A DNA stretch of 64,000 nt from a virus (IMGVR_UViG_3300008267_000013:1-64000), one strand, 5' to 3'; shown: positions 21,296 through 45,010, counted from the first letter of the stretch. Made by a program: numbers and translations. The notes: generated by a model from the sequence alone, not told the origin.

Positions 21296-21841
21296 GTGAA
21301 AATAACAAAAAGTGAATTAAAAATTATAATTCTAGAAGAACTTAAAAAAACCCTAGAAGAAGAAGAATTAGAAGAAATAGGGAAATTAGGTAGATATGTT
21401 GCTGGTGCGTTAGGAGGCGCAGCGATGCTTGCCACACCAGTATCTGCAATGGCTGATGCGGGCAGCTCAGAAAAGTTTAGCATTGGTAGTAGAATAAGTC
21501 CAAAACAAGATACACCAAATTTAGGTGATCTTGGTATTCGTGGTGCTGGTGCGAAGGCGCCAGCAGTATATGATATATATGGATACGATGGACAAATAAA
21601 AGATAATCAAAATGGTAAAGCTCTACGGTTTAAAGAGTTGGGAGGTGGCAGAGTACAACTTTATGATAAAGGTAAACCAATAGAAATTATAAAAAATAAT
21701 GAAATTGGTAAACAGGGTGATAAAAATAAGCGCTATACTGTAACCACAGATCTCAAATTAAGAGAACCATCTACGTTGGGAACGAGCGTCAGTAGAGGGG
21801 AGACTCCCAAAGGTAAAATAGTAAAACTTAAAAAGAAATAA
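21296..21841 (+). CDS. Tagged protein with hydrophobic segment, unknown
   Basis: 181 aa from GTG with SD TGGAGAG. The N-terminal helix has the K-x2-L-K-x-I-I-x-E-E-L pattern shared by other proteins here. It is followed by a Gly/Ala hydrophobic segment ending in A-M-A-D-A, which resembles a signal-peptidase site. The C-terminal half is beta-rich and repetitive in Gly and Lys, perhaps SH3-like. ACTATTTATG lies 32 bp upstream. It may be an internal or exported virion protein. Function is unknown. Confidence 0.6.
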   Translation: MKITKSELKIIILEELKKTLEEEELEEIGKLGRYVAGALGGAAMLATPVSAMADAGSSEKFSIGSRISPKQDTPNLGDLGIRGAGAKAPAVYDIYGYDGQIKDNQNGKALRFKELGGGRVQLYDKGKPIEIIKNNEIGKQGDKNKRYTVTTDLKLREPSTLGTSVSRGETPKGKIVKLKKK

Positions 21842-21852
21842 AGATATACAGC

Positions 21853-21900
21853 TTGACTCTTACAACACCCTGGCTTATACTAGCAGGGTGTTTTCTTTTT
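21853..21900 (+). promoter_or_regulatory. Sigma-70 promoter inside a terminator hairpin
   Basis: TTGACT (21853-21858), 17 bp, TATACT (21876-21881). The -10 is in the loop of AACACCCTG (21864-21872) / CAGGGTGTT (21884-21892), followed by a T-rich run. A near-copy of the hairpin is at 47081-47109. Confidence 0.75.
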
Positions 21901-21911
21901 AGGAGAGATAT

Positions 21912-22640
21912 ATGATTTATATGTTTGACATTGATGGTACATTGACTGATCCAAGACAAAAAATGACAGAAGGTTTTGCAGATATTTTTTACAGATGGAT
22001 GAAAGATAAGAAAGTATTTCTAGTAACCGGAAGTGATCCCGATAAGGTACAGGAACAAGTTCCTACTGAGGTCTTGAGTAAATGCGTAGGAATATTCACT
22101 TGTATGGGCAATCAGTTACATATAAAAGATAAACTAATCTACTCAAATAGAATAGAAATCCCAGAAGATCTCATAGTGTGGTTACAACAACAGGTTGATT
22201 TTTCAGATTGCCCAGAAAAAACTTCAAATCATTTAGAACACCGTCCAGGAATGTTAAACTTCTCTGTAGTTGGAAGAAACGCTACACAACAACAACGACT
22301 TGAATATTATGATTGGGATAAAAAGTCTGGAGAACGTAAGAGAATATGTAATTACATAAATCACAAATACCCAGAATTAGAAGCATGTGTTGGGGGACAA
22401 ATATCAATAGATATACAAGCTAGAGGAAAAAACAAATCTCAAGCATATGAATGGGTAAAAGAAAATTATGACGAACCAGTATATTTTTTTGGAGACCATT
22501 GCGAAGAAGGTGGTAATGATCATGCAATAGCAAAAGAGATTGACAAACCACACTCTAATGATTACTATATGAATGTATCAGGTCCATCAGACGTACTTGA
22601 TTTTATAACAACCTTGGAGGAAGAATGCTTAGACATTTAG
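21912..22640 (+). CDS. Eukaryotic-type phosphomannomutase-like HAD protein
   Basis: 242 aa. The HAD nucleophile motif D-I-D-G-T-L-T is at residues 6-12. The PMM cap signature reads R-P-G-M-L-N-F-S-V-V-G-R-N, and the late metal-binding motif is F-F-G-D...G-G-N-D-H. This matches the alpha-PMM family, which converts mannose-6-P to mannose-1-P. The length is near the family's 250 aa. It is the first gene after its own promoter. With a cupin at 31145 and a possible nucleotidyltransferase at 25213 it could supply GDP-sugar, but this is an inference. Confidence 0.8.
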   Translation: MIYMFDIDGTLTDPRQKMTEGFADIFYRWMKDKKVFLVTGSDPDKVQEQVPTEVLSKCVGIFTCMGNQLHIKDKLIYSNRIEIPEDLIVWLQQQVDFSDCPEKTSNHLEHRPGMLNFSVVGRNATQQQRLEYYDWDKKSGERKRICNYINHKYPELEACVGGQISIDIQARGKNKSQAYEWVKENYDEPVYFFGDHCEEGGNDHAIAKEIDKPHSNDYYMNVSGPSDVLDFITTLEEECLDI

Positions 22641-22864
22641 TAGAGAGATTTGAAAGAGAGGCTAGCGAATTTACAAAACGTAATATCACCCTATCCCACG
22701 ACTCATTTTATTCCGGGGAACAGAGGTCTTATTATAAAAAGCTTGTTGTTGATGGACGAGAAACAAGACATCACATAGATATCATGGAGTTGCAGGAAAC
22801 TGTAAGTCGTGGTAGAATGGCTGACAAAGTTCGTGCTGTAGCTGGTTTAATCCTACTAGGATAA
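22625..22864 (+). CDS. Small unknown protein
   Basis: 79 aa, charged, with a central S-Y-Y-K-K-L-V-V-D-G-R-E-T-R strand-like region and a hydrophobic C-terminus. It overlaps the phosphomannomutase-like gene by 16 bp with SD TTGGAGGAAG. I do not recognise the family. Confidence 0.65.
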   Translation: MLRHLVERFEREASEFTKRNITLSHDSFYSGEQRSYYKKLVVDGRETRHHIDIMELQETVSRGRMADKVRAVAGLILLG

Positions 22865-22876
22865 GGAGAATATAAA

Positions 22877-23179
22877 ATGAGCAGCGATCTAAAGACTGTT
22901 ATCACTGGTATCGACACTTACAAGGCCCCAGAAAAGACTAAGGAGGAGCGTCTTAAGGACTTCATTAAAAGTATGGCTACAATTGATGAGTCTATCCTTC
23001 CGTTTAAAGAACAAAAGACTGATCTAAAGAAGAGCTACGCTGATAATAATTATCTAAGCCGCGCAGAGCAAAAGATTGCTCTTAAAGCGTATCGCCTTAT
23101 TAAGGATAAAACGGATTTTGCACAACTTGATCAATTCTTTGAGAAAATCAAGGAGATGAAAGTTGTAAGTGAGGAGTGA
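22877..23179 (+). CDS. Small helical unknown protein
   Basis: 100 aa, Lys/Glu/Asp-rich and predicted mostly helical. It has good SD (AAGGAG) and better codon use than its AT-rich neighbours, which suggests expression at a good level. It lies just before the GroES-like gene. I see no motif that sets a function. Confidence 0.7.
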   Translation: MSSDLKTVITGIDTYKAPEKTKEERLKDFIKSMATIDESILPFKEQKTDLKKSYADNNYLSRAEQKIALKAYRLIKDKTDFAQLDQFFEKIKEMKVVSEE

Positions 23180-23180
23180 T

Positions 23181-23471
23181 ATGCCTACCAAACTAACACC
23201 AGTTAATAAAATGCTTGTTGTTGAAAAAGAAAACAGTATCAGCAAACAAGAAGAACTAGGATTTGTGCTACCTGAACGTGTAGTAATCACACGTCACACT
23301 AACGCTGTTCTAAAGAGCGCATCAGAAGGATCGCTATTTGAACGTTATGTAGGACAAAAATTAGTTATTGTAACTTCTATGATGGAAGACATAGAAGTCA
23401 AAGGTACGAAACACACTATCATACCAGAAAATGGTGTTGTTGCAGTTATTGCAGAAAGTGATTTGTTTTAA
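23181..23471 (+). CDS. groES: GroES-like co-chaperonin
   Basis: 96 aa from the ATG downstream of SD GAGGAG. The order of P-V-N-K-M-L-V-V-E-K, a mobile-loop region, F-V-L-P-E-R-V-V-I and a C-terminal E-N-G-V-V-A-V-I is that of Cpn10. The mobile loop is polar and divergent, as in T4 gp31. It should cap a GroEL ring, most simply the phage GroEL at 39470. Its stop overlaps the thyX start (TAATG). Confidence 0.75.
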   Translation: MPTKLTPVNKMLVVEKENSISKQEELGFVLPERVVITRHTNAVLKSASEGSLFERYVGQKLVIVTSMMEDIEVKGTKHTIIPENGVVAVIAESDLF

Positions 23472-24196
23472 TGGATAATAGTATTTATATATATGATGAC
23501 GGAATCGGACGGGTAGAGCTCGTAGATCATATGGGCGATCAGAAAAAGATCGTAAATGCAGCCCGTGTATCGTTTGGCAAAGATAACCATGCGCCACTCG
23601 ATGATCGTGACAAGAAACTAATTAAGTATCTTATTGAACATAAACATACAAGCGTGCTAGAACATAATATGGTAACATTTAAGTTTGTTGTTCCATTATA
23701 TGTTCGTTCACAACATCATCGTCACCGTACATGGAGTTACAATGAAATCAGTCGTCGCTATACAGCAGAAAATCTTATGTTTTACTCCCCTAAAACATTT
23801 AGAACTCAACATAGAAATAACCGACAAGCAAGTAATAACGACGAGCAAATTAACCCAAGACTTTTCGAAGCAAGAGTTATTGGTGTTGGAGAGCCGCTTA
23901 GTGCATCAGATGCAGTAAGGCAACATCATCTTGCTTCAGTTTCGTTATATGAAAATCTAATGCAGAAAGGCATATGTCGTGAGCAAGCCCGTGGTGTATT
24001 ACCACAGAATCTATATACAGAATATTATGGAACCTGTTCACTATCCAATCTACTTAAATTCATCGATTTAAGAACACATGAAGGCGCTCAATGGGAAATT
24101 CAGGTATTAGCTAAAGCTTGTTTAACGTTTGCAGAACGATTATGGCCTGATGTTATCAAAGCTTATTATGAGGTTAAAAATGCCAAGAACAGTTAA
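23471..24196 (+). CDS. thyX: Flavin-dependent thymidylate synthase ThyX
   Basis: 241 aa. The diagnostic ThyX motif R-H-R-x2-S-x-N-E-x-S-x-R-Y is present around residues 82-95 (R-H-R-T-W-S-Y-N-E-I-S-R-R-Y). The later R-E-Q-A-R-G-V-L-P and L-R-T-H segments match the FAD/dUMP site. It makes dTMP from dUMP using methylene-THF and NADPH. It works with the dUTPase at 33129 and the deaminase at 11339. The gene starts at the GroES stop and overlaps the next gene by 17 bp. Confidence 0.95.
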   Translation: MDNSIYIYDDGIGRVELVDHMGDQKKIVNAARVSFGKDNHAPLDDRDKKLIKYLIEHKHTSVLEHNMVTFKFVVPLYVRSQHHRHRTWSYNEISRRYTAENLMFYSPKTFRTQHRNNRQASNNDEQINPRLFEARVIGVGEPLSASDAVRQHHLASVSLYENLMQKGICREQARGVLPQNLYTEYYGTCSLSNLLKFIDLRTHEGAQWEIQVLAKACLTFAERLWPDVIKAYYEVKNAKNS

Positions 24197-24449
24197 AACA
24201 ATAAAAGATAATGATGGAAACGATTTAGAAGTATATACAGATAATTGCACTGTATGTTCTGTAGAGATGGTTTTTCCAAAAAGAGAAGCGGATGATCTTG
24301 AAAGCATGTTTCCTTTCCTAAGACAAAAAATTGAGGAATATAATCCTTGTATTAATTGTGCCATAGAGCAAGATAAAAAAGATAAAAAACCCTTTTTAAG
24401 CCCAGAAGAGTTTGAAATTATTAGAAAATCTCTAACAAACAATCAATAA
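24180..24449 (+). CDS. Small zinc-ribbon-like protein
   Basis: 89 aa. Two Cys pairs, C-T-V-C (about residue 23) and C-I-N-C (about residue 58), are spaced as in a zinc ribbon. Acidic and Lys-rich segments surround them. It begins inside the end of thyX. Role unknown. Confidence 0.65.
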   Translation: MPRTVKTIKDNDGNDLEVYTDNCTVCSVEMVFPKREADDLESMFPFLRQKIEEYNPCINCAIEQDKKDKKPFLSPEEFEIIRKSLTNNQ

Positions 24450-24452
24450 AAC

Positions 24453-25229
24453 GTGAATAAAATAATAACTTTAGATAGAATAGTTATTGGTTCTTCACTT
24501 GAAGCAGTATTATGCGCATTCTATAATAAATTAAAACTTATCTATACGCGTAATCTCCAACCAGACGTACACGATACAATTGAAGATTATGGATTGGGAA
24601 CTAGCAAGCATGACGCATGGAATAAACATACGTTCCAGCTATCTCTTGCCGGCTATACGCCTTTTGGTGATAAGATAAAACATATAAGATATGTTGATAA
24701 GAATACAATAAAAGTTATCACGAAAGAAGAAGGTGTATATACTGTTATTTTTCAAGAACTATATGTGTTTGATGACCATGAATTCTTAGACATACCGCCC
24801 CATCTTTCTTCCGATAAAGATGAAGTACGCATACTAGATTGGTTTAAAGTTGTAGAAGGTGATATATCATCACACGAATCAATACAGAACAAAAATAGAT
24901 TTATAAATCAAATTATATTTTATAAAGATAAAAAAGAAGTTTGTGTTGTATCATATGTAAAAACAGAAGAGTTAGACTCTAAGCAGGAACATCTTGTTAG
25001 AGTTAAAACAGAGAGTATATTAAGTAATCCAGGAAATGATATAATCCTTGATCATAGAGATAGACAGATATTTGATCTAGGAAAAAATATATATGAAGAT
25101 TTTGATAACGTAACATTTTCTTATGCTGATCATAAGATCATGTATGATTTAAGAAGAGTACGTGCTAAAATCGATTATATGAAATATTTACGCATCAAGC
25201 TTGGGATAGCAAATGATAGAGACGAATAA
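24453..25229 (+). CDS. Unknown protein, GTG start
   Basis: 258 aa. The start I-V-I-G-S-S-L-E-A-V-L-C resembles the first strand, Gly turn and helix of a dinucleotide-binding fold, but later Rossmann motifs are not clear. It overlaps the next gene by 17 bp, so the two are probably co-translated. Function unassigned. Confidence 0.6.
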   Translation: MNKIITLDRIVIGSSLEAVLCAFYNKLKLIYTRNLQPDVHDTIEDYGLGTSKHDAWNKHTFQLSLAGYTPFGDKIKHIRYVDKNTIKVITKEEGVYTVIFQELYVFDDHEFLDIPPHLSSDKDEVRILDWFKVVEGDISSHESIQNKNRFINQIIFYKDKKEVCVVSYVKTEELDSKQEHLVRVKTESILSNPGNDIILDHRDRQIFDLGKNIYEDFDNVTFSYADHKIMYDLRRVRAKIDYMKYLRIKLGIANDRDE

Positions 25230-26028
25230 AGATGTAGACCATCTAGCTGGTATTATACCAATAGCCGGCCAACCATTAGGCTTTAATATGCCATGGCATG
25301 ATTCACTTATGCCAATACATGAAAACTATCATGCTGTCGAGAGAGCAGTAAATACAGCTGCAGTTGCTGGCTGTAATACAATATGGATCGTTATGTATCG
25401 TGAAAGCCAACCAATTATAAGAAAGAAGCTTGGCGAATGGGTATATGATCCAGAATCAACTTGGAAAAATCCTTGGCCATGGCTACAATTAAAGCGTGTA
25501 CCAGTATATTATGTATCTATTAATGCTGTAGATAGAAAACGCCGTGATTCAATAGCGTGGAGTTGTCTATATGGAGCCAAGGTAGCATCTCAAACTTGTA
25601 AAAAAATAAGTAAATGGATACTACCAAAAAGATTTCTAGTAGTTAATCCGTATGGGGTAATTTCAGAAGAACAGATGAAAAATTGCCGTAGAGACTTAAG
25701 AGGCTCACAAGAAATTGTGTTTAACTGGGAGGGGAATAACTTTAAAGAGAATCTCTATACACCATTTACTTTTTCTCAAAAGCAATATGAAGAATGCCGC
25801 ATATATTTCAGAGATAGATATTCTGGTGACGAGACAATGCGTCACTTTAAAGAAATATTTAAACCGTTATCATTAGAAAAATATAAATCAATAGATGCAG
25901 AGTGGTTTTATAATATAGATGATTGGAATAGTTACTCTAATTTTATTAGATCCGAGCATAATAAATTATGTGAAAGACCAAAATATTTGGTAACCCATAA
26001 ATGGTGGGGACTTATAAAGGATACTTAA
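25213..26028 (+). CDS. Possible sugar nucleotidyltransferase-like protein
   Basis: 271 aa. The N-terminus I-I-P-I-A-G-Q-P-L-G-F followed by L-M-P-I and, after a helix, I-W-I-V resembles the first Rossmann unit of NTP-transferases (mannose-1-P guanylyltransferase type). The usual R-L/K signature is not intact. The rest is aromatic-rich with many Trp and Tyr. If real, it could join the mannose-related genes at 21912 and 31145. It may also be a glycosyltransferase of the same fold. Confidence 0.4.
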   Translation: MIETNKDVDHLAGIIPIAGQPLGFNMPWHDSLMPIHENYHAVERAVNTAAVAGCNTIWIVMYRESQPIIRKKLGEWVYDPESTWKNPWPWLQLKRVPVYYVSINAVDRKRRDSIAWSCLYGAKVASQTCKKISKWILPKRFLVVNPYGVISEEQMKNCRRDLRGSQEIVFNWEGNNFKENLYTPFTFSQKQYEECRIYFRDRYSGDETMRHFKEIFKPLSLEKYKSIDAEWFYNIDDWNSYSNFIRSEHNKLCERPKYLVTHKWWGLIKDT

Positions 26029-26029
26029 T

Positions 26030-26218
26030 GTGAGTAACGAAGAAGAAGAACTATACAATAAACTTAAGAATATGAAAAGAGAGAATGAGCTTCTTATGGT
26101 TATCTATGAAGAACTTGACGAACTTATATCCAGTGGATACAATGGAAAGTTGCAAGATGAATCTACGGAAGGATTATTCTATTCCATAAATGAATATAAG
26201 AAATGGAAATCATCATGA
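26030..26218 (+). CDS. Small coiled-coil protein
   Basis: 62 aa from GTG. Residues 4-35 are Glu/Lys/Leu-rich with heptad spacing, consistent with a coiled coil. Its stop overlaps the next ATG. Function unknown. Confidence 0.55.
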   Translation: MSNEEEELYNKLKNMKRENELLMVIYEELDELISSGYNGKLQDESTEGLFYSINEYKKWKSS

Positions 26219-26424
26219 GAACACGACACGATGATGTATGTTTGTGGTGGAAAGATTGGCATAGTTGTTCATGTGGATACCTAGAAGAGGAAGTTAGAGC
26301 AGAAAGAGTGCGAGAATGCCTAGAGATAATTCCTAATACTTTTGCTGCTTGCGGCGAACTATATGGAGATCAACCACAATATTGTTCCACATATTGTCTA
26401 GAGAAAGCTAGAGGTCACAAATGA
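26215..26424 (+). CDS. Small Cys/His-rich protein
   Basis: 69 aa. Start chosen at the ATGA overlap with the upstream stop. Clusters C-L-W-W, H-S-C-S-C and a C-terminal Y-C-S-T-Y-C could hold one or two zinc ions. It overlaps the downstream gene by 4 bp (ATGA). Function unknown. Confidence 0.6.
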   Translation: MRTRHDDVCLWWKDWHSCSCGYLEEEVRAERVRECLEIIPNTFAACGELYGDQPQYCSTYCLEKARGHK

Positions 26425-26687
26425 GCGGCGGACATTTTAACAATAATGATTATATTTATTACCGCGTATATGAATTTGCAGATCAGCTAGAAAACCACAT
26501 TCAGAACAACGACAAAGAAAATGATTATGGATATTGTCCAAACTATAGTCAAGAAGTCATAGAATTTCTAAAACCAAAAGTTGAAGAGATTCGCAAGATT
26601 GCCAAACTGATGAAAGAGATTGATTATCTTTATTCTGGTGACCATGGTGAAGATTCTTTCATGAAAATTGTCAAGGAGCAACAATGA
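26421..26687 (+). CDS. Conserved 'SGGHF' small protein
   Basis: 88 aa. It starts M-S-G-G-H-F and ends with S-G-D-H-G-E-D-S-F, a pairing I know from short proteins in many phages and bacteria without known function. The protein is mostly helical between. ATGA-type overlaps occur on both sides, so it is part of a tight operon. Confidence 0.7.
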   Translation: MSGGHFNNNDYIYYRVYEFADQLENHIQNNDKENDYGYCPNYSQEVIEFLKPKVEEIRKIAKLMKEIDYLYSGDHGEDSFMKIVKEQQ

Positions 26688-30869: not shown

Positions 30870-31136
30870 ATGAAACTTGTCATCAAAAATAGATTAAATG
30901 AAAATATAACTCCACAAATGTTAGATAGTAGTAGTTTTAGAACTGCAATTACGAATAGTTTAAAACATATGAATAACAGCCAGGATGTTAAACAAACAGG
31001 TTTAAACATTTTAGATAGTGAGGGAAGACCAACTATTAAGGGATATTATTTGTTTAGAGATGGCGATAATTTTTCAGTTTATCACCTCAGCGATCCTTCA
31101 AAAAAGTTTCCAATACAAATAAGCGATTATATATAG
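30870..31136 (+). CDS. Small unknown protein
   Basis: 88 aa with SD CGAGG. It contains a mid-protein L-D-S-E-G-R-P-T-I-K-G-Y-Y-L-F strand pattern. The N-terminus K-L-V-I-K-N-R-L-N-E-N is weakly like the tagged proteins nearby. ACTATTTAAA lies about 25 bp upstream. Function unknown. Confidence 0.6.
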   Translation: MKLVIKNRLNENITPQMLDSSSFRTAITNSLKHMNNSQDVKQTGLNILDSEGRPTIKGYYLFRDGDNFSVYHLSDPSKKFPIQISDYI

Positions 31137-31836: not shown

Positions 31837-32190
31837 ATGAAGATGACAAAAAAAGATCTAAAAGCAATTATCATGGAAGAATTACAAAACATGCAAGAGC
31901 AACAAGACGGTTTTGAAATGGAAATTGACATGGGAGTTCTATTCCAAGGCAATATGGTTAGAGTTACAGTCTCTGAATCAGAGACTTCACGCGATAGAAT
32001 AGTTATAAAAAAAATAAATGGTGAAGATGCTAAACAATTTGTAGAAGCAGTTGTACAAGAAGTACCTTTTGAAGTAGAAATGAGCAAACTCAGCAGAGAT
32101 GAGCAAAATGCCTTAGCTACAGCAATGGAAAAAGAGAAAAAGGGCGAATGGTCAGACTGGGCAGCAGATCAAGCCGCTAATAGAAGATAG
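31837..32190 (+). CDS. Unknown protein with shared N-terminal tag
   Basis: 117 aa. The first 16 residues (K-M-T-K-K-D-L-K-A-I-I-M-E-E-L) are the tag also seen at 21296 and 43515. The remainder is acidic, with beta-prone residues 24-50. Function unknown. A capsid-internal protein is a possibility based only on the tag. Confidence 0.62.
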   Translation: MKMTKKDLKAIIMEELQNMQEQQDGFEMEIDMGVLFQGNMVRVTVSESETSRDRIVIKKINGEDAKQFVEAVVQEVPFEVEMSKLSRDEQNALATAMEKEKKGEWSDWAADQAANRR

Positions 32191-34737: not shown

Positions 34738-35496
34738 ATGGCTGATAAGAAATTACTAGAAGAGGCAACTATTCGCAGATTCATGAAACTAGCGAATATT
34801 GCTCCAACTGAGAAAGGCGTACTAACTGAAGGTACCATGAAAGTTAAACTATCCGGTCAAGAACCAGCTGGTGGCCGTGCTGCGTTCCCAATGGCTAGCC
34901 AAGGTGTACGTGGTCCAGTACGCGAAGAAGCTGAAGAGGAAATGAAAAAAGAAGGTTGGATGAAAGAAGCCGACGAAGAAGAAGCCGCTCCAGAAGCTGA
35001 TGCAGCTGATATGGGCGACATGGCAGGCGACGATATGGGCGCCCCAGCGGAAGGGGGTGATCTAGAGTCTGCTGTTGCAAGCGTTGTTGATGCATTAAAT
35101 GGTCTACTAGCTGCTGCGGGTATGGAAGATAAAGAAGTAGAACTAGACTCTGGATCAGAAGAAGGTGGCGAAGAAGCTGCTGGTATGGAAGATGAAATGG
35201 CTGCTCCAATGGCCGAAGCCAAAGAAGAAGAAGAAAAAGAAGGTAAAAAAGAAGAAGAGGAAGAAGAACTAGAAGAAAGCATTGAACTAGTTGACGACAC
35301 TCTTATCGAGAAACTTGTACAACGCGTATCAGCTCGTCTAGTTGCTGAAGCTCGCAAACAAAAAGATGCTAAACTAGCCGAAGCTAAAAAAGGCGGCGCT
35401 GGTAACTGGCTAGCCAAGCCAAAACACTCCAAGCCACCAAAAGCCAAAGGTAACCCAACCAAAGGTGGCACTCCATTCAAGGGTGGAAAGAAATAG
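34738..35496 (+). CDS. Acidic, Ala/Glu-rich core or scaffold-like protein
   Basis: 252 aa, extremely rich in Glu, Ala and Gly in the middle, with a basic Gly/Lys/Pro C-terminus. The N-terminus E-A-T-I-R-R-F-M-K-L-A-N-I resembles the tags of neighbouring proteins and has L-x-E sites suited to a prohead protease. A strong terminator follows, so it is expressed as a defined unit. It is a good candidate for a prohead core or internal head protein, but there is no family match I can name. Confidence 0.65.
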   Translation: MADKKLLEEATIRRFMKLANIAPTEKGVLTEGTMKVKLSGQEPAGGRAAFPMASQGVRGPVREEAEEEMKKEGWMKEADEEEAAPEADAADMGDMAGDDMGAPAEGGDLESAVASVVDALNGLLAAAGMEDKEVELDSGSEEGGEEAAGMEDEMAAPMAEAKEEEEKEGKKEEEEEELEESIELVDDTLIEKLVQRVSARLVAEARKQKDAKLAEAKKGGAGNWLAKPKHSKPPKAKGNPTKGGTPFKGGKK

Positions 35497-36422: not shown

Positions 36423-36725
36423 ATGAGGCCAACTGCTTGGAAGCTTTATGAATCTAATGATTGTGTTACCTACAGGATTCAATTTGATGAAGTACCTTGG
36501 AAGTTCAAGAAAGCATTGCATGAAGCTATGAAAGATTGGAAATCTGGTCCATATGGTTGGCATAAAACAACTGGTAACCAACTATATACGTTTAGTAAAG
36601 AATTTAAGAATCTGGAAGACTGGACGCAATGGGCCGAATCATTCCCTATCCAGATAACCGAGAAGCGTGTGTGGGGCGACCGGGAAAAAATCATTCTACA
36701 CGGAAAGAAGACAAAAAATGGCTAG
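36423..36725 (+). CDS. Small Trp-rich unknown protein
   Basis: 100 aa from the ATG 1 bp after the upstream stop. Seven Trp residues and an alternating beta/alpha pattern. It overlaps the start of the ClpP-like gene by 8 bp. Function unknown. Confidence 0.6.
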   Translation: MRPTAWKLYESNDCVTYRIQFDEVPWKFKKALHEAMKDWKSGPYGWHKTTGNQLYTFSKEFKNLEDWTQWAESFPIQITEKRVWGDREKIILHGKKTKNG

Positions 36726-37386
36726 AATCACAAAGAAGAGCAAGATCTCAGGTGAACAAGAAATTGCTGTTGAAGAGGATGAATCCGGAAACCTAATTAT
36801 TATGCAGCCACCAGCTGCTCCAGAGGTTAAGTTTCGTAAAATTGGTTTAATTGGCGATGTTGACGAAGAGAAAAGCGCGGACATTATTCAGTCTCTATAT
36901 GCACTCAAAGAAATGGGTAGAATCGAAATCCCTCCTGCTACTAAGCGAAGCAAGCCAAAGATCTCCTATGATCCAATCGATTTTATCATCTCGACTCACG
37001 GTGGAAGTGCTAGTGATATGTTTGCGATGTACGATGTGATGCGTGATGTACGCTCAGATGGCTGCGAAATCCACACTTTTGGTGTTGGTAAGGTTATGAG
37101 TGCAGGTGTGTTGCTTCTAGCTGCTGGAACAAAAGGTGAGCGTAAAATTGGTAAGCATTGCCGTGTTATGATGCACTCAGTTATTGGTGGTAACAGCGGC
37201 CCAATCTTTAATCTTGAGAACGAGATGAAAGAAGTACGCGCAACTCAAGAACGTTATATTCAAGCTCTTAAATCAGAAACAAAAATGTCCATTAAACAGA
37301 TTAATAATTTCTTTAATCGCCATGTTGATATCTATTTATCGGCTGAAGAAGCAGTTAAATTAGGAATTGCTGACATTGTAGTTTAA
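36718..37386 (+). CDS. clpP: ClpP-like serine protease
   Basis: 222 aa. S-T-H-G-G-S-A-S-D (oxyanion/Gly loop) is present. The nucleophile is in G-K-V-M-S-A-G-V-L-L-L-A-A-G, the His in R-V-M-M-H-S, and the Asp is probably in the A-D-I-V C-terminus or nearby. The N-terminal 40 residues are a phage-specific extension. ClpP with a host Clp ATPase degrades proteins. In phages the same fold also acts as prohead protease. It precedes tagged putative internal proteins, which could be its substrates. Confidence 0.85.
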   Translation: MARITKKSKISGEQEIAVEEDESGNLIIMQPPAAPEVKFRKIGLIGDVDEEKSADIIQSLYALKEMGRIEIPPATKRSKPKISYDPIDFIISTHGGSASDMFAMYDVMRDVRSDGCEIHTFGVGKVMSAGVLLLAAGTKGERKIGKHCRVMMHSVIGGNSGPIFNLENEMKEVRATQERYIQALKSETKMSIKQINNFFNRHVDIYLSAEEAVKLGIADIVV

Positions 37387-37400: not shown

Positions 37401-39461
37401 ATGATAAAGAAGAAAGATATAGACCTAGGCTCTATTGTTAAGCAGAGTATCTTAGAATCCAAGAAAGATCTTGGAATTATAGCAGAACAAGAGAATTCCA
37501 AAACAAATAAGAAAAAATTTGTTTACAGGGAGTTTGATCCAATAAGAGACATAAAACTAGTTGACATGAACCCCGGTGCTTGGAGTCTTGCTGGAAATCC
37601 TGATGCTAATGATATTGATGCGGTTTTACAGAATTTAGTAGAAGCCGGCGAAGACCCAATACAGAAAATCAAAAGTTTATTTAAAAATTTAAATGAATTG
37701 ATGAAAGTTACCAAAACATCAGCAGGTTTAACAATAAGTAAAAGCGCTAGAGAATTTTCGTCACAGCAAGAAAAATTTTCTCATGCACAAATCATGAGAT
37801 TACTGTACACAATGTTTGTTGAAAGTAAACCAGGTGTTACAGGAACATGGTTTGAATCTTTTATAGCTAGAGCAGTTGGAGGTTACTCCACAAACAGAGA
37901 CGATATAACCATAGAAGATGTGAGAGTTGGTAATAACTTCCTAAGTTTGAAAGTTATCTCATCAGGAACTGATATAACTGGTTCCAAGTTCAATTTAGCA
38001 AGAGGTATATTATCTGCCGAAGAAGCTGGTGGCGCTGATTCGGGAATCATATATTTAGTGTGCGTAAAAGATACAAATAGTTTTCCTATGTATTTTGAAA
38101 CATTTTCATTTAAAATAAATAAAAATAACTTTTTCAAGTTTGTTTGCAGAAAACCAAACCCAACCGCAGATGAAATAAAAGCGCAAGCAGAGAGTATTCT
38201 TGGCCGTTTTATAGACGCTTTACCAGATAACTTAAAAACTAATCCTAACTTTAAAAAAACACTATCCGAGAATCTAATATTAGAAGGAAGACCAGTAACA
38301 TCAATAAAAATAAAACAATTAACTGCCGCAGCAGAAAATTATGCTACTGATAAGCTTGGTTGGAATAAGCAAGCAGGTGATTTGATTTCACACTTTTTCA
38401 CAAAATATTTTGAAGATTTAGTTGAAAATGTTTATAGTGTTTCTTTAAATATTAAAATAGGTGATAAAAGTCTTTACGAAGCATTAAGCGGCACTAAAGA
38501 AACTAAGGCATTATTTCCAGGATTCAATGAATTAAAAAAATTAATGAATCCAAATGATAAACCACAACAATCGTTTATAAATGACGTTCTTTATTCTAAA
38601 ATAATGCAAGGCTATTATAATCTCTCTGATAATCACAATGTGTGGTCGTTCGCGGAAACTATTGAGCCAGATAAAAATATTAGAAATCTAGCTGTAAGAG
38701 TAAATAATAGAGAAGTATTATCACCTGAAGAATATAAAATAATTGATGATCACTTAAAAAATAATAGTAGTAAATATGTAAACGCTTGGAAAACATTTGT
38801 AGAAAATGAAAAGGTTGTTAGTTTCTTTAAATTTCTTGATGAGTTTGCTTATTATGCACAAAAAGCACAAAAAGAAGCATCATCCAGCGCCAACCCAGAA
38901 CAACCTGCTTTAGCTCAACCAGAAATCCCTAGTCAGCCGCAGACAGGACTTCAAAACAAAACTTCATCGTATATTGATCTATTCTTTAAGTACGTTAAGA
39001 CAAACTCTGAAACATTCAAAATATTAAGTCAATCAGAAAATAGTAAGCAATTAGAGGAATCTAAAAAAGATACCGGCTCAAGATTCGAAATGTCTATCAG
39101 TTTAGCTAAAACTTTAGCTAATACTTCCGAGGCTGAACTTGATGATGCGTATGATACTGTGTACGTTGATACAAAATTTTTATTGAAAGAAGGAACACAA
39201 CTAGAAAATGAATTAAAAAATGATATATTTATGAAATTGTTTAAAGATAAACACGACTTAGAACAAAGATATTTACAATATTTCGCCTATGGAGAACTTG
39301 AGGGTGCTAAATTATTAACTAGTGTTGTTGATGATTTAAAGAAAGATTCTACAGATTTCTTACAGGGATTAGCTAATAAACAGCCCGTACAAGAAAATAA
39401 AAACAATAAACACTTGACAAAACAATGGGCAATGGATATATTCAATAAGTTGATCAAATAG
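37401..39461 (+). CDS. Large protein with N-terminal tag, unknown
   Basis: 686 aa. The N-terminus D-L-G-S-I-V-K-Q-S-I-L-E-S-K-K is like the tags of nearby proteins, with I-L-E as a possible cleavage site. The central part has D-I-T-I-E-D-V-R-V...L-S-L-K-V, an arrangement like a PD-(D/E)xK nuclease core but not decisive. A Pro/Gln-rich linker lies near residues 495-515. Between ClpP and GroEL, it may be an injected internal head protein. Confidence 0.55.
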   Translation: MIKKKDIDLGSIVKQSILESKKDLGIIAEQENSKTNKKKFVYREFDPIRDIKLVDMNPGAWSLAGNPDANDIDAVLQNLVEAGEDPIQKIKSLFKNLNELMKVTKTSAGLTISKSAREFSSQQEKFSHAQIMRLLYTMFVESKPGVTGTWFESFIARAVGGYSTNRDDITIEDVRVGNNFLSLKVISSGTDITGSKFNLARGILSAEEAGGADSGIIYLVCVKDTNSFPMYFETFSFKINKNNFFKFVCRKPNPTADEIKAQAESILGRFIDALPDNLKTNPNFKKTLSENLILEGRPVTSIKIKQLTAAAENYATDKLGWNKQAGDLISHFFTKYFEDLVENVYSVSLNIKIGDKSLYEALSGTKETKALFPGFNELKKLMNPNDKPQQSFINDVLYSKIMQGYYNLSDNHNVWSFAETIEPDKNIRNLAVRVNNREVLSPEEYKIIDDHLKNNSSKYVNAWKTFVENEKVVSFFKFLDEFAYYAQKAQKEASSSANPEQPALAQPEIPSQPQTGLQNKTSSYIDLFFKYVKTNSETFKILSQSENSKQLEESKKDTGSRFEMSISLAKTLANTSEAELDDAYDTVYVDTKFLLKEGTQLENELKNDIFMKLFKDKHDLEQRYLQYFAYGELEGAKLLTSVVDDLKKDSTDFLQGLANKQPVQENKNNKHLTKQWAMDIFNKLIK

Positions 39462-39469
39462 GAGGAACC

Positions 39470-41035
39470 GTGAAGGTTTACAACAAAGAATCAGATTTAA
39501 ATCAAAAAATTGTATCAGGTGTTAAAAAGTTAGCCGAAGCTGTTGGAACAACATTGGGGCCAAAAGGCCGTAATGTTATAATTCAACAAAAAGGTAAGAC
39601 GCCATTCATAACAAAAGATGGAATTTCAGTCGCTTCTCATATTGAATTTGAAGATCCGTTTGAGAACGCTGGCGCTCAAGTTTTAAAGCAAGTATCGCAG
39701 AGGACAGTAGAGGATTGTGGTGATGGTACGACAACATCAACAATTCTTGCAGCTGCTGTATTAACTAAATCGCAGAAGTACATAACTGCTGGTTCTTCCC
39801 CGACAGATATTCGTCGCGGTATGGAGAAGGCTGTTGAAGGCATTGTTGCTAATTTAAAGGATCTTGCAAAGCCAATCTCAAGTGTAGAAGATATTGAACA
39901 TATAGCGACAATATCAGCAAACGGTGATAAAAAAATTGGTAAACTAATTGCGACAGCTGTTGATAAAGCAGGTGTCGATGGAGCCATTTCTATCGAAGAA
40001 GGCCGCGCTCTAGAAACAAAATTAGATATCGTAGAAGGATTTCAGTTTGACGCTGGTTACGCCTCTCCGCAATTTATTACCGATGAACGCAAGGGTTCTG
40101 TAAGATATGAAAACGCTCTTGTTCTCGTAACAGACCAAGATATGGAACATATTGATGATATGATCCCTGTTCTAGAGATTGCAGCACGTGATAAGCGCCC
40201 ACTTGTTATTGTTGCCGAATCTGTTGAAGGACAGGCTCTTGCAGCTCTTATCATGAACGCAGTACGTGGTACAATGCGTGTTATGGCTATTAAAGCCCCA
40301 CGATATGGTCAAGAACGCAAGAATCTATTAAAAGATCTCTCAATATCAGTTGGAGCTAAGTTTATTTCCAAAGAACACGGCATGTTGCTAAGAGATGTCA
40401 AATTGGTAGATCTAGGCTCAGTTAAGAGCGTAGAATCATTAAAGAATTGGTCAACATTTGTTGGCGGAAAGGGTGATCATGAAGAAATTGAAAAGCGCAT
40501 TGAATCACTTAAAAATGAAATTACTCAAACCGATGACCTATCTGAATGTAGCCGCATCCAGGATCGTATCACAAGACTCGCAGCAGGCGTGGCTATTATA
40601 TCTGTTGGGGGAGTTACAGAAGTAGATATGATTGAGCGTAAACACCGTATCGAAGATGCGTTATCCGCAGTTAAGAGCGCTCAAGAGGAGGGAATATTAC
40701 CTGGTGGTGGCGTAGCTCTGCTGCGTGCAATAGCAGGATTAAATGTTACAGGTGACAATCAAGATGAAGAATTTGGTATACAAATCATCAAAGACGCATG
40801 TGAAGCTCCTATCCGTAAGATAGCCGAAAACTGTAATGAAAAAGCGGATGTCATCATCAATAATTTAACTGGTCGCGATACTTGGATTGGTTATGATTTT
40901 AAAGATGGAATATATGTAAATTTCCAAACGGTTGGAGTGCTCGATCCTGCAAAAGTAACACGCTGCGCTCTTCAAAATGCTGTGTCAGCAGCCTCAACTT
41001 TATTGACAACAAATTACGCCATTATTGAAGTCTGA
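39470..41035 (+). CDS. groEL: GroEL-type chaperonin
   Basis: 521 aa from GTG with SD AGGAGG. Hallmarks: T-L-G-P-K-G-R-N-V near residue 30, D-G-T-T-T-S near 85, and a late G-G-G-V-A-L-L-R. The usual C-terminal Gly-Gly-Met tail is missing and it is slightly shorter than E. coli GroEL (548 aa). Phage GroELs can work with altered co-chaperonin needs. The GroES-like protein at 23181 is the natural partner. It probably folds the phage's own capsid proteins. Confidence 0.95.
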   Translation: MKVYNKESDLNQKIVSGVKKLAEAVGTTLGPKGRNVIIQQKGKTPFITKDGISVASHIEFEDPFENAGAQVLKQVSQRTVEDCGDGTTTSTILAAAVLTKSQKYITAGSSPTDIRRGMEKAVEGIVANLKDLAKPISSVEDIEHIATISANGDKKIGKLIATAVDKAGVDGAISIEEGRALETKLDIVEGFQFDAGYASPQFITDERKGSVRYENALVLVTDQDMEHIDDMIPVLEIAARDKRPLVIVAESVEGQALAALIMNAVRGTMRVMAIKAPRYGQERKNLLKDLSISVGAKFISKEHGMLLRDVKLVDLGSVKSVESLKNWSTFVGGKGDHEEIEKRIESLKNEITQTDDLSECSRIQDRITRLAAGVAIISVGGVTEVDMIERKHRIEDALSAVKSAQEEGILPGGGVALLRAIAGLNVTGDNQDEEFGIQIIKDACEAPIRKIAENCNEKADVIINNLTGRDTWIGYDFKDGIYVNFQTVGVLDPAKVTRCALQNAVSAASTLLTTNYAIIEV

Positions 41036-41082
41036 TAACTATTTATTAGAGGCGGTATTTTTCATGAAAGGGGGGTAGCGAA

Positions 41083-41403
41083 ATGGACCAACAAAATAGC
41101 TTTAGAGATATAGAAGAAGTGATGATCGAAATTAAGATTGGAACTGAGAGAATAACCAGCAAATTAGAGCAGTTAGGCGATACCATCTCTAAGCTTGAGA
41201 GTTCCATTTCACGTATAGATAGTGCTATCTCCTCTCAAGAAAGAAGACTAATTGTTTTAGAGCAATCTGTTCCTAGAAATTTATTGGAAGACCTAGCACT
41301 TCTGAAGAATTCACAAGCTAATCAAACAAAGCTTATGTGGCTTATAGGTGGTGCTGCTGTTTCTGGTTGGTTAAAAACAATCTTTACCTTGATAACTCAG
41401 TAA
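41083..41403 (+). CDS. Coiled-coil protein with C-terminal TM helix (XhlA/holin-like)
   Basis: 106 aa. Residues 15-75 have heptad-like Ile/Leu spacing (coiled coil), and a single hydrophobic helix (W-L-I-G-G-A-A-V-S-G-W-L) ends the protein. This matches the layout of XhlA-type holin-associated proteins. SD GGGGG is present. ACTATTTATT lies 36 bp upstream. It has its own terminator. Not near the endolysin, so a lysis role is uncertain. Confidence 0.55.
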   Translation: MDQQNSFRDIEEVMIEIKIGTERITSKLEQLGDTISKLESSISRIDSAISSQERRLIVLEQSVPRNLLEDLALLKNSQANQTKLMWLIGGAAVSGWLKTIFTLITQ

Positions 41404-41410
41404 GAGTGTG

Positions 41411-41453
41411 TTACAATTACCGGGAAGTGGCTTATGCTGCTTCTCGGTTTTTT
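41411..41453 (+). promoter_or_regulatory. Promoter-like sequence inside a terminator hairpin
   Basis: ACCGGGAAG (41419-41427) pairs with CTTCTCGGT (41440-41448) followed by six T. TATGCT (41433-41438) is in the loop, and TTACAA (41411-41416) is 16 bp upstream. Same design as at 9144, 21853 and 27338. Confidence 0.65.
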
Positions 41454-41465
41454 ATTGGAGGATAT

Positions 41466-41783
41466 ATGAACGTTAAAATTAGTTTTACAATACCAATTGA
41501 AGAATTACCAAATAAGATTTATGGGATTCTTAAAGAAAATGTTAATAAATTAGAAGATGCAGGTGAAATGTTAAACCAAGTATCAATAAACCAGAGTAAC
41601 TTAATATCTTCTATTAAAAATATAGATTCTATAAGAAAGTTACTACTTACAGTTGATACGCAGCTTGGAGATTGCTATAATATCCTTCTTGGTTACAACA
41701 AAGCAGTAACAGAATCTTTGTATCCAAAAGAAGAAGGGGTAAATAATGCAGTCGATGTGGACAACGACTCTTCACAAGGGTGA
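41466..41783 (+). CDS. Small helical protein, unknown
   Basis: 105 aa from the ATG with SD GGAGG. After a short beta start, a long helical region with Ile/Leu/Val heptads suggests a coiled coil. The 3' end overlaps the next gene by 38 bp. Function unknown. Confidence 0.6.
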   Translation: MNVKISFTIPIEELPNKIYGILKENVNKLEDAGEMLNQVSINQSNLISSIKNIDSIRKLLLTVDTQLGDCYNILLGYNKAVTESLYPKEEGVNNAVDVDNDSSQG

Positions 41784-41952
41784 TATAGTAAAGATTCCTC
41801 AGAACACTCATCTTTTTAGGGGAACATCGTTTTTTGTACCAGATAAACCAATATACGGAATAATTACAGAAGAAATAGAAGGTTATTACGATATTATGGT
41901 AAATGGCGAGAATTGGCTAGCCTTTAAGTGTGAAGTATACCCAGGGAGATAA
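41746..41952 (+). CDS. GDI-family small protein
   Basis: 68 aa. K-G-D-I-V-K-I-P near the start, then a beta-rich body, as in the array at 51580-57331, but without the K-V-A end. Starts inside the upstream frame. An SH3-like barrel is inferred. Confidence 0.6.
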   Translation: MQSMWTTTLHKGDIVKIPQNTHLFRGTSFFVPDKPIYGIITEEIEGYYDIMVNGENWLAFKCEVYPGR

Positions 41953-41953
41953 C

Positions 41954-42232
41954 ATGGTTAGATTTACAGAAGTTTATCAGAAACAAGGTACTAATCAATA
42001 TAGTATGAGAGAGATTACTATCAACCCACAACACGTTGTAGCCTTTAGGGAAGATCCAGGTGTTCAGTCTGCATTAAATGAAAATAGACTACCAGAAGGT
42101 CTTTCTAAGAATATTGGCTTTACTCGTATCTATTTAAATTCAGGGCAGTTTAGTCTAAATGTTGTTGTAGCTGGTTCGCCAGAGATGGTGGAACAAAAAA
42201 TGTCCACCTCTAAGAAGCTGCTCAAGGGCTAA
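41954..42232 (+). CDS. Small beta-rich protein, unknown
   Basis: 92 aa from the ATG with SD GGGAG, 1 bp after the upstream stop. Alternating hydrophobic residues in I-T-I-N-P-Q-H-V-V-A-F and F-S-L-N-V-V-V suggest a small beta fold. Function unknown. Confidence 0.62.
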   Translation: MVRFTEVYQKQGTNQYSMREITINPQHVVAFREDPGVQSALNENRLPEGLSKNIGFTRIYLNSGQFSLNVVVAGSPEMVEQKMSTSKKLLKG

Positions 42233-42235
42233 TCT

Positions 42236-42634
42236 ATGGCAGAAGATAATCAAGATGATGATGAACTAAAAGATTATTTTGTTGTTAAGTTTGAAAAATT
42301 CCTTCAGCTGATGGAAGAAATAGAACACAAATATCAAATACTTGCTGATTTAATTCATGAACAAGTATTAGCTACATTACCAGACTTTTGGGAAGGTACT
42401 CCTATAAAAGATCTAATGAGGTTTTTTGTAGATGTATCCGATTTAAGAGACTTTTTGGAAGATAAAATAAACAACGCTTCCGACGATGAAGTTAAGTTAG
42501 CTGCAAAATATAATATAAAAGATGTTTTGATGAAAACAGAAGAACTAGCAAGGATGAATGTCCTACTTGTTTCAGTAGAGGAGCTAGAAGCAAGAATTGA
42601 AATAGAACATAAAATTTCTATACAGACCCATTGA
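42236..42634 (+). CDS. Acidic helical protein, unknown
   Basis: 132 aa, strongly acidic and almost wholly helical. Heptads in the C-terminal part (E-E-L-E-A-R-I-E-I) suggest a coiled coil. No SD beyond the weak upstream context. The last codons overlap the promoter of the hsp20 gene. Confidence 0.6.
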   Translation: MAEDNQDDDELKDYFVVKFEKFLQLMEEIEHKYQILADLIHEQVLATLPDFWEGTPIKDLMRFFVDVSDLRDFLEDKINNASDDEVKLAAKYNIKDVLMKTEELARMNVLLVSVEELEARIEIEHKISIQTH

Positions 42635-42687
42635 CAAGTTTAAAGTAGTGATTACACTATAGACATACCGCGCCACTGGCGCTTTTT
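42631..42687 (+). promoter_or_regulatory. Sigma-70 promoter followed by terminator-like leader hairpin
   Basis: TTGACA (42631-42636), 16 bp, TACACT (42653-42658). GCGCC-ACT-GGCGC (42670-42682) plus five T follows. Here the hairpin lies downstream of the expected start, so it would be in the leader and could attenuate or cap the hsp20 mRNA. Confidence 0.62.
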
Positions 42688-42704
42688 CAAAAGGAGAAAA
42701 ACGT

Positions 42705-43067
42705 ATGTCAATACTAGTTCGTGAGTTCGACAATCTATTTAGCAGCACGGCTTCAACCACTTGGGCAGATAGCCCAAGTTATGGTGCATATCACCAACAT
42801 ACCCGGGAGGATGAGATCCTTATCGAAGTACCACTTGTTGGGATGACTAAAGAAAATGTATCTGTTGATGTAAGTGATAATGTTTTAGCAGTTATAGCTA
42901 AAACTGATAACACAACACGATATACTAGAAACTTTAGTCAGAAGTGGATCCTAACAAAGGATTCTGATGCCGAGAATATTTCTGCTAAACTTGAAAATGG
43001 TTTACTTTCTGTACGTATTCCACGCACCAAACCAGCAAAGAAAGTTATTAATGTATCTGTTATTTAA
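42705..43067 (+). CDS. Small heat shock protein Hsp20
   Basis: 120 aa. The alpha-crystallin core is clear: I-L-I-E-V-P-L-V-G-M, then F-S-Q-K-W-I-L, and the closing L-E-N-G-L-L-S-V-R-I-P. The C-terminal I-N-V-S-V-I resembles the I-x-I oligomer motif. Marine T4-like phages often carry hsp20. It holds unfolding proteins, probably capsid parts. SD AAGGAG. Confidence 0.9.
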   Translation: MSILVREFDNLFSSTASTTWADSPSYGAYHQHTREDEILIEVPLVGMTKENVSVDVSDNVLAVIAKTDNTTRYTRNFSQKWILTKDSDAENISAKLENGLLSVRIPRTKPAKKVINVSVI

Positions 43068-43084
43068 TAATAATTAAGTAATGG

Positions 43085-43114
43085 GCGAGCAGACTAAAAT
43101 CTGCTCGCTTTTTT
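43085..43114 (+). terminator. Intrinsic terminator
   Basis: GCGAGCAGA (43085-43093) pairs perfectly with TCTGCTCGC (43100-43108), followed by six T. It ends the hsp20 transcript. Confidence 0.92.
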
Positions 43115-43149
43115 ATTGCTTTATATATATTATAAAGCTATTTATAGTC

Positions 43150-43473
43150 ATGAGATTAATATTATTAGACAAACGTGAATTAGAAATGGGTATTGAAAAA
43201 GAGAGTACCGAACACGGAATGTCATATGAAGAAGCTCGCAGAACAGCCATTGATCACCTAAAAGAACGACCTGATTATTATTCTGTAGCTGAAAAGGCTG
43301 GCCTTGAAGAAGAGGGTCTTGAAGAATGGACTGATTCTATTTTCACTAAAGAAAAAACAGGCGGCAGAACTGGTCGTTTAAAGAAACATTGGAACAAACA
43401 AAAGAGAAGTGGTAAGAAACAATTCGCGGATATTCCAGTTGGGGCTAGCGGCGGAATGTTTACAGACGAATAG
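43150..43473 (+). CDS. Small conserved phage protein (E-H-G...Y-Y pattern)
   Basis: 107 aa from the ATG 3 bp after GCTATTTATA. It has E-H-G-M-S-Y-E-E-A-R and D-H-L-K-E-R-P-D-Y-Y-S, a pairing seen in many phage proteins of unknown function (DUF5661-like by memory). The C-terminus is very basic. No SD is seen, so the start may be leaderless. Confidence 0.6.
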   Translation: MRLILLDKRELEMGIEKESTEHGMSYEEARRTAIDHLKERPDYYSVAEKAGLEEEGLEEWTDSIFTKEKTGGRTGRLKKHWNKQKRSGKKQFADIPVGASGGMFTDE

Positions 43474-43514
43474 TTCTGTGATACACTATATAAGTTTTAT
43501 AGAAGGATAATAAC

Positions 43515-43925
43515 ATGAAGATTACAAAAGAAAGACTAGAACAACTAATCCAGGAAGAACTAGCTGTTGGTGTTATAAGCCCAGAAGAGATGAAAGGTGG
43601 CGAAGAACCACGCGATCCAGATGGCTATGAGGGCCGTATGGCAAAGCAAAATCTATGGAAAATCTGCGAATACGCCAGAACTCTACATGATCTCATAGGC
43701 GACGATGAAAATCTAGAACCATGGGTAGAAGAGAAAATTGCGGTAGCAGCATTTATGATGGATTCAGTTGGACACTATATGGAATATGAGAAACACCGCT
43801 CACACGAAGGCTCAGAAGGTGAGATGGACCATGCTGATTTTGATGGTGGTCACGAAGAAGAGGGTGATGAGGAATATGAATTTGAATTCGAACCCGAAGA
43901 AGGCGAAGAAGAAGAGGAACTATAA
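43515..43925 (+). CDS. Tagged acidic protein
   Basis: 136 aa. The N-terminal tag K-I-T-K-E-R-L-E-Q-L-I-Q-E-E-L matches 21296 and 31837. The C-terminal 30 residues are almost all Glu/Asp/Gly. SD AAGGAT. The stop overlaps the next start (TAATG). Possibly an internal head protein. Function unknown. Confidence 0.65.
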   Translation: MKITKERLEQLIQEELAVGVISPEEMKGGEEPRDPDGYEGRMAKQNLWKICEYARTLHDLIGDDENLEPWVEEKIAVAAFMMDSVGHYMEYEKHRSHEGSEGEMDHADFDGGHEEEGDEEYEFEFEPEEGEEEEEL

Positions 43926-45010
43926 TGTTAACAAGAAAAGAAACTCGTAAAGTTCTTGTTGAATGGAAAAACTTTCTTCAAGAAGGTGAAGGTAAGAAAA
44001 TAGCAGTTGTTGATTTAGACGGAACTGTTTTCGAGAAGGGATTAAACCTAGCAAATATCCCAGAGGGAACAGTTGCTGGTCCAATTAAATACTTCGCCTT
44101 ATCGTCTGTTGAATCATTAACTCCAAACGCTAAATCAAGCAATGGTATTTTTAATGGTAATGATGAAATATTTACTGATGTTATCAAGCAAGTTAATGAT
44201 TTAAAGAAGCAAGGTCACAAGGTTGTTATGTTAACAGCTAGATCCGTTCCAAACTTCGCTGATTATAAGGCCAAAAATGATCCTAATCTTAATTTTGTAG
44301 ATTCAGGTGTTACCTTAATTGAAACTAACGGTGAGTTATTAAACAAACTAAGCCAACTTGTAAGAGATATTGGTTTAGAAGTTGATGAAATTTATCCACT
44401 AAACGCTCCCGAAGAAGGCAAAAAACATGCCAAGAAAGCAGAATCATACAAGAAAGATGCAATAATCAACATTGTCAGAGATGCCTCAGAAGTAATCATT
44501 TTCGAAGATGATAGAGAAATAAAAGTAGCTCTACAAAATAAGCTACATAAAGAGTTACCAGATGTTCTTGTTAATTTTGCAAATGTTGGCCCAGCGATAA
44601 CAGATACCGCACGCGAAGAAGATGCTGCTGCCAAAGAACAGGTTAAAACTACAGCTTTAAAGGTAGTAGAAGCAATCTTTGGTGAAGGTACTTATGTAAG
44701 ACCACAGGGTAGACCATCAGACACAATAGTTAAAATGCGCGATATTCTATATCCTGCACAAATTAGCAGCGAAGAAGACGACATTCTGCAATCAGTTATT
44801 AAAATTTATACAAATGCTACAAAGAAGCTAACCTTCAAAGATTTTGAAATTGTCAGTAATCTAAAAGATAATAAAGCGCTATTAAAGAAGTTTAAAGCAG
44901 CCTATAAAGAAGCTAGTAAAGAGCAAGGGTTCACACCAGAACCTGATGAGATGGGTGATCAACTTAAAGAATCCTTAAATAAATTGAGAGTTATATTAAA
45001 AAATAAGTAG
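43925..45010 (+). CDS. HAD-superfamily phosphatase-like protein, tagged
   Basis: 361 aa. After an N-terminal T-R-K-E-T-R-K-V-L-V-E-W helix comes the HAD motif I A-V-V-D-L-D-G-T-V (about residues 27-35). Motif II is V-V-M-L-T-A-R-S near 100, and motif IV F-E-D-D-R-E is near 196. The C-terminal 150 residues are helical and specific. The substrate is unknown. It resembles polynucleotide or nucleotide phosphatases only in fold. Confidence 0.75.
   Translation: MLTRKETRKVLVEWKNFLQEGEGKKIAVVDLDGTVFEKGLNLANIPEGTVAGPIKYFALSSVESLTPNAKSSNGIFNGNDEIFTDVIKQVNDLKKQGHKVVMLTARSVPNFADYKAKNDPNLNFVDSGVTLIETNGELLNKLSQLVRDIGLEVDEIYPLNAPEEGKKHAKKAESYKKDAIINIVRDASEVIIFEDDREIKVALQNKLHKELPDVLVNFANVGPAITDTAREEDAAAKEQVKTTALKVVEAIFGEGTYVRPQGRPSDTIVKMRDILYPAQISSEEDDILQSVIKIYTNATKKLTFKDFEIVSNLKDNKALLKKFKAAYKEASKEQGFTPEPDEMGDQLKESLNKLRVILKNK

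Follow-up and report, generated by a model that had tools for sequence, protein, structure and literature searches.

Recurrent N-terminal tags resembling T4 capsid-targeting peptides on unrelated proteins of an uncultured T4-like phage

Tagged proteins at the locus

The region from position 21,296 to 45,010 of the virus record IMGVR_UViG_3300008267_000013 encodes several otherwise unrelated proteins that begin with a short amphipathic tag. The material (the window) is the stretch of bases 1-64000 in this 87,792-base IMG/VR record, the other 23.8 kb of which were read too. The initial annotation had given the proteins starting at 21296, 31837, 35952, 37401, 43515, and 43925, with weaker cases at 30870, 31496, and 34738, a common N-terminal motif, K-x2-(L/I)-x2-(I/L)-(I/V)-x-E, and had likened it to the targeting peptides of T4 internal proteins. 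All of the proteins listed are present at these positions. Four of the six main ones are tagged, three with one class of tag (class 1) and one with a second (class 2); the tags proposed for 35952 and 37401 are unsupported. The tagged proteins of the record, with lengths in amino acids (aa) and isoelectric points (pI), are:

21296..21841, + strand: class-1 protein, 181 aa, basic, pI 9.5, GTG start; profile score 40.5 bits, reached by 0 of 8,869 null starts
31837..32190, + strand: class-1 protein, 117 aa, acidic, pI 4.7; profile score 27.7 bits; tag at 31837-31884
43515..43925, + strand: class-1 protein, 136 aa, acidic, pI 4.2; profile score 31.0 bits; tag at 43515-43562
43925..45010, + strand: class-2 HAD/polynucleotide-kinase-phosphatase-like protein, 361 aa; phrog_415, E=6e-9
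73855-74622, beyond the window in the same record: fourth class-1 protein; profile score 45.8 bits; N-terminus MKITKEYLKQVIKEEL

The class-1 profile was made from 232 distinct metagenomic tags, and the null is a set of random viral contigs, which supplied 8,869 start codons. Across the 87.8-kb record four starts score between 27.7 and 45.8 bits, while the next-best start scores -13.7 and the best null start -2.8. When the position of the tag is left free the split is the same, with 30870, 31496, 34738, 35952, 37401, and 43925 all in the background.

The literal motif is present at the extreme N-terminus of 21296 (VKITKSELKIIILEEL), 31837 (MKMTKKDLKAIIMEEL), and 43515 (MKITKERLEQLIQEEL), where the profile scores agree with it, and the consensus of this tag is MKITKSQLKQIIKEEL. 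In 21296 the tag is the first 16 codons (21296-21343), and cleavage is possible after I12-L-E14 or L20-E-E22; the corresponding candidate sites are after I12-M-E14 in 31837 and after I12-Q-E14 in 43515. The body of 21296 has no match in Pfam or PHROG, the databases searched with the bodies of tagged proteins. A search of the genome for more tags, as the initial annotation had advised, added the class-1 copy at 73855, the longer N-terminal stretch of which is MKITKEYLKQVIKEELNNLEEAS. The proposed motif does not fit 43925, which nonetheless has an N-terminal tag, EWKNFLQE (N-terminus ETRKVLVEWKNFLQEGEG). This is the sole match in the whole record to the class-2 motif, defined as (L/I/V/M)-x-x-W-x-x-(F/Y)-(L/I)-x-E, and a possible cleavage site after F17-L18-Q-E20 lies directly ahead of the HAD motif KIAVVDLDGTVF.

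Recurrence and modularity of the tags in viral metagenomes

A strict class-1 scan, using a degenerate DNA pattern for M-K-I-T-K-x2-L-x3-I-x-E-E, was run over the 2.9 million viral contigs of IMG/VR. Counts of tags, of records, and of gp21 given here are among the matches listed in the IMG/VR scans, which are at least 120 stretches for each tag class. The strict pattern is found in at least 120 stretches, many with two to four tagged genes in succession, and the metagenomic consensus is MKITKxxLKxIIKEEL. A decoy with the same codons in permuted order has no match in the 2.9 million contigs. A looser pattern gives more than 100 matches, spread over 40 of 40 tagged records, and its reversed form gives none in the same 40. 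A search of 85,000 prokaryote genomes with the strict pattern gives only 8 stretches, all on contigs of metagenome-assembled genomes, and these may be phage contigs, since 3 of the 7 genomes concerned also carry gp21.

The information content of class 1 falls to near background beyond residue 16-22. Within the tag I12-x-E14 is nearly invariant, although it is demanded by the search pattern. A second (L/I)-x-E, not demanded by the pattern, ends at E21 in 13% and at E22 in 22% of class-1 tags, against a background of 1.1%, which is an enrichment of about 12- to 20-fold, and the linkage between Leu/Ile and Glu exceeds what their separate frequencies would give. Ala and Gly are enriched after these second sites.

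The proteins behind the tags are unrelated to each other. Non-redundant bodies make up 208 of 229 class-1 open reading frames (ORFs) and 132 of 164 class-2 ORFs, with a mean column identity of 4-6%, and class-1 bodies have almost no Pfam or PHROG identity. Tagged genes of one contig are 76% identical over the 48 bases of the tag, 31% over the 40 bases upstream, and 28% in the body, with 63% identity at the third codon positions of the tags. A mobile DNA cassette bearing the tag is ruled out, as homology ends at the tag on both sides. Likewise, when the 73855 protein is aligned with those of relatives having 79-88% identical UvsX, the alignment is essentially limited to the tag. The class-1 peptide is kept across many contigs, with exchange of Lys and Arg.

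Class 2 has the consensus MKLL(L/M)ENWRK(Y/F)LxE in at least 120 rows of its own IMG/VR scan, and is likewise an N-terminal feature: the 1,655 genes examined in tagged loci have the motif 26 times at an N-terminus and twice elsewhere, and it is at none of the N-termini of 565 control genes. The two classes occur together, with class-1 tags in 19 of 112 newly fetched class-2 loci and in none of 56 control loci. Class-2 bodies include GNAT, NUDIX, zeta-toxin/AAA kinase, GDSL lipase, M23 peptidase, HD, HAD, and ART-PolyVal domains (ART, ADP-ribosyltransferase), and PHROG 415 polynucleotide kinase, the family matched by 43925, recurs in other class-2 cargo. Among these are enzymes of a type that would be expected to be injected. 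The 'WVxSKI' domain in the body of 43515 follows class-1 tags in several phages and a class-2-like tag in the locus L088 (MSNSTSKWFKYLTEA); in eight proteins compared with this type of domain Glu14 is aligned and invariant.

Tandem runs of class-2 genes are seen in L263, L268, L303, and other class-2 loci, paralleling the class-1 arrays. Two adjacent copies of gp23 and 21 class-1 tags are present in each of the giant records G003 (242 kb) and G006 (293 kb).

Linkage to head genes and likeness to T4 targeting peptides

The gene for the prohead protease, gp21 (searched for as PF03420), is present in 31 of the 39 class-1 viral records of one set and in 14 of the 22 of another (45 of 61 overall), compared with one of 29 random viral contigs, each of at least 20 kb (Fisher p=6e-11). 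Among those of 20-60 kb it is found in 22 of 33 class-1 records and in none of 21 random contigs. The capsid protein gene gp23 is present in 25 of the first 40 class-1 records. For class 2, gp21 is present in 14 of 43 records, and in 9 of the 11 that are 100 kb or longer. In several records tagged genes directly flank gp21, the position of the core genes 67 and 68 in T4. Of 33 tag clusters, 21 lie between 17 kb upstream and 4 kb downstream of gp21, compared with 6 expected. Phages closely related to that of the window (UvsX 79-88% identical), including G042 and G045, carry both gp21 and gp23; G042 has a class-1 gene immediately 5' of gp21 and G045 has two tagged genes after gp23. The N-terminal region of gp23 in tagged phages itself has (L/V/I)-x-E with Ala or Thr as the next residue, as in QLLKEASSM and ELLREANAM, for which the T4 gp23 counterpart is FLTEA.

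The T4 core, its cleavage, and the diverse bodies of its internal proteins have been described (PMC5694885, PMC3012670). The N-terminus read from the T4 record is MKTYQEFIAEA (Y4-xx-F7-I8-x-E10), and in this capsid-targeting sequence (CTS) residues 4 and 7 serve targeting and residues 8 and 10 processing by gp21 (PMC9026906). The spacing of both tags is that of the T4 CTS moved by four residues, L8-xx-I11-I12-x-E14 in class 1 and W8-xx-Y/F11-L12-x-E14 in class 2, so that the hydrophobic anchors 6 and 3 residues before the P1 Glu (Y4 and F7 in T4) are L8/I11 and W8/(Y,F)11. As with the CTS of IPI, IPII, and IPIII (Mullaney and Black; PMC9026906, PMC3012670), a short putative propeptide with hydrophobic-x-x-hydrophobic-(I/L)-x-E spacing stands at the N-terminus of unrelated proteins and is the only signal conserved, with a gp21-type protease in similar genomes. 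Differences are that the P1 Glu is at residue 10 in T4 and 14 here, that the consensus is very different (MKITKSQLKQIIKEEL and MKLLxENWRKFLxE), and that here there are two tag classes, a single genome having numerous putative cargo genes that are frequently arranged in tandem.

Other systems are comparable in part. Ejection proteins of the giant phages phiKZ and SPN3US have N-terminal propeptides cut at x-x-E by the prohead protease (PMC5694885), and among them are paralogues with near-identical N-termini and diverging bodies; those propeptides are mostly longer than 100 residues, whereas the tags are about 14-22 residues, as in T4. The nearest cultured relative by UvsX is the Flavobacterium phage vB_FspM_immuto (Immutovirus, NC_055915), at 32% identity. 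It shares the replication gene order of the window, has gp20, gp21, and gp23, and has class-1-like N-termini in gp095 (MKKSELVKLIKEELN), gp080 (MKKSQLRQIIKEALD), and gp072 (MKKSQIVKAVQEVLEEM), the last two genes upstream of gp21, but it is distant, has few tags, and has MKKS where class 1 has MKITKS. A tblastn search of named phages with a 23-aa consensus tag gave one weak match, the query being too short and too rich in Lys and Glu to inform, and the first 50 kb of cyanophage Syn9 has a single partial, unconvincing match. T4 Alt is an ADP-ribosyltransferase packaged in the head (PMC5694885). Like Alt and the polyvalent proteins (PMC5512222), which are enzymes delivered with phage DNA, class-2 cargo includes the ART-PolyVal domain, although here the cargo enzymes stand singly, each preceded by a short tag that recurs.

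Because of the T4 spacing, the second (L/I)-x-E, and the (L/V/I)-x-E sites of gp23, the tags are probably T4-type capsid-targeting propeptides, which the core would bind and gp21 would cleave behind (L/I)-x-E. The likeness proposed in the initial annotation is upheld by features that are directly observed: the tags themselves and their confinement to the N-termini of proteins, the unrelated bodies, the gp21/gp23 linkage, and the T4-like spacing. During head assembly the amphipathic N-terminal stretch of 14-22 residues would dock on the prohead core, as we infer, and the gp21-type protease would cut at (L/I)-x-E, mainly behind residue 14 and in many cases a second time around residues 21-22. 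The mature protein would be freed inside the capsid and would then be able to exit with the DNA. Class 1 is found mostly on small proteins without known function, many of them in the head-gene region, and class 2 often on enzymes (HAD/polynucleotide kinase, NUDIX, GNAT, kinase/zeta-like, and ART-like). Packaging and cleavage of the tagged proteins are predicted with good support from these sequence features, while injection, suggested by T4 and by the enzyme cargo, is more weakly indicated.

The tag might instead be a virion assembly signal that gp21 does not cleave, for docking on the neck, tail, outer shell, or scaffold. Its N-terminal location and nearness to head genes would suit any structural dock, but the near-invariant Glu14 with a hydrophobic P3 points to the prohead protease, as do the second site with Ala or Gly after it and the T4 spacing, and such a signal is unlikely. 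A helix with a cytoplasmic role unrelated to the head, in oligomerisation, membrane or chaperone binding, or control of degradation, is less probable still. It would be in keeping with the amphipathic pattern, with class-2 enzymes that could work in the cytoplasm, and with the GroEL-like protein encoded by the window phage, yet it leaves the linkage to gp21 and gp23 and the conservation of (L/I)-x-E unexplained. That the tag has no function at the protein level, and is instead a trace of recent duplication or gene conversion, or an A+T-rich leader that enhances translation, is hardly credible: tandem arrays and the agreement at third codon positions would favour it, but homology ends at the tag and excludes the upstream ribosome-binding region, and across many contigs the peptide is kept while Lys and Arg replace each other.

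Several observations weigh against a capsid-targeting role. Both gp21 and gp23 are absent from the 87.8-kb fragment of the window phage and are seen in its close relatives only, and class-2 records shorter than 100 kb are often without gp21. The distance limits used to count tag clusters around gp21 were picked after the positions had been seen, and in G003 and G006 the tag arrays are about 95-125 kb from gp21. Part of the association with gp21 may reflect confinement of the tags to one T4-like clade; such a tag is missing from some T4-like phages in culture, Mel-JY01 among them. There is no enrichment of a T4 late promoter upstream of the tags.

Very few internal proteins of T4 itself are known to enter the head by means of a targeting peptide, and the injected proteins of environmental T4-like phages are almost unknown, for their bodies share no sequence. 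The chances are evenly balanced that the two tags serve uncultured T4-like phages generally as an address code, marking hundreds of unrecognised packaged and injected proteins, including GNAT, NUDIX, HAD/polynucleotide kinase, zeta-like kinase, and ART-like enzymes, with the classes interchangeable on the same cargo. If the tags are targeting peptides, a simple N-terminal search would list candidate injected proteins of uncultured phages and predict their mature N-termini, and would supply new short tags for packaging into phage heads. No published description of these tags was found in the open-access papers searched, although one may exist elsewhere.

Other proteins and features of the window

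Of the remaining proteins in the initial annotation, three are:

34738..35496, + strand: acidic protein, 252 aa, distinct conserved N-terminus LLEEATIRRFMKLANI; homologues in L116, L167, L079, L088, and L038
35952..36143, + strand: 63-aa protein, offset amphipathic N-terminus TIRKMIVEAK; profile score within background
37401..39461, + strand: 686-aa protein; profile score within background, tag unsupported

The 34738 protein, thought to be weakly tagged, fails the class-1 profile and belongs to a separate acidic family with the N-terminus (L)LEE(S/A)TIRRFMKLANI; it is in neither tag class and is possibly a core-type protein. The motif of this family resembles the C-terminus (RMRRLAGIK) encoded by the gene directly ahead of gp23 in related phages, and is possibly a third core-binding signal. 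Tags on 35952, 37401, 30870, and 31496 are unsupported, none being clearly separable from background with the position fixed or free. The close relative L167 has a 61-aa ORF with a similar N-terminus at the position equivalent to 35952, and no relatives of 37401 were found in viral contigs or phages.

Two ClpP-like proteins, at 36667-37386 in the window and 80952-81548 in the record, match 'head maturation protease' PHROGs. These are Clp-type matches (80952 also matches the Pfam Clp protease), and neither is needed as the head protease because relatives carry true gp21. Many T4-like phages encode, a short way downstream of gp21 in the head operon, a homologue of ribosomal protein S21; the match to PF01165 was tested for the one at L131:2440-2661, and similar ORFs are present in L128, L129, L133, L134, and L135.

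A protein at 6243-7064 has an FtsZ/tubulin-like start (VIGLGAAGCNI ... VAGGGFISG) and no Pfam match. On the minus strand, at 58686-61139, an AAA_5 ATPase adjoins a DUF2201 metallopeptidase/VWA protein, most genes being on the other strand. A DnaB-type helicase at 13895-16318 is interrupted in frame by an intein that has Hint and LAGLIDADG domains. The ribonucleotide reductase alpha gene, nrdA, is split over 18025-21230, with the NrdA N-part and intein N-half at 18025-19161, a GIY-YIG homing endonuclease gene at 19235-20212, and the intein C-half and NrdA C-part at 20196-21230, an arrangement suggestive of a split intein whose halves are separated by a homing endonuclease gene.

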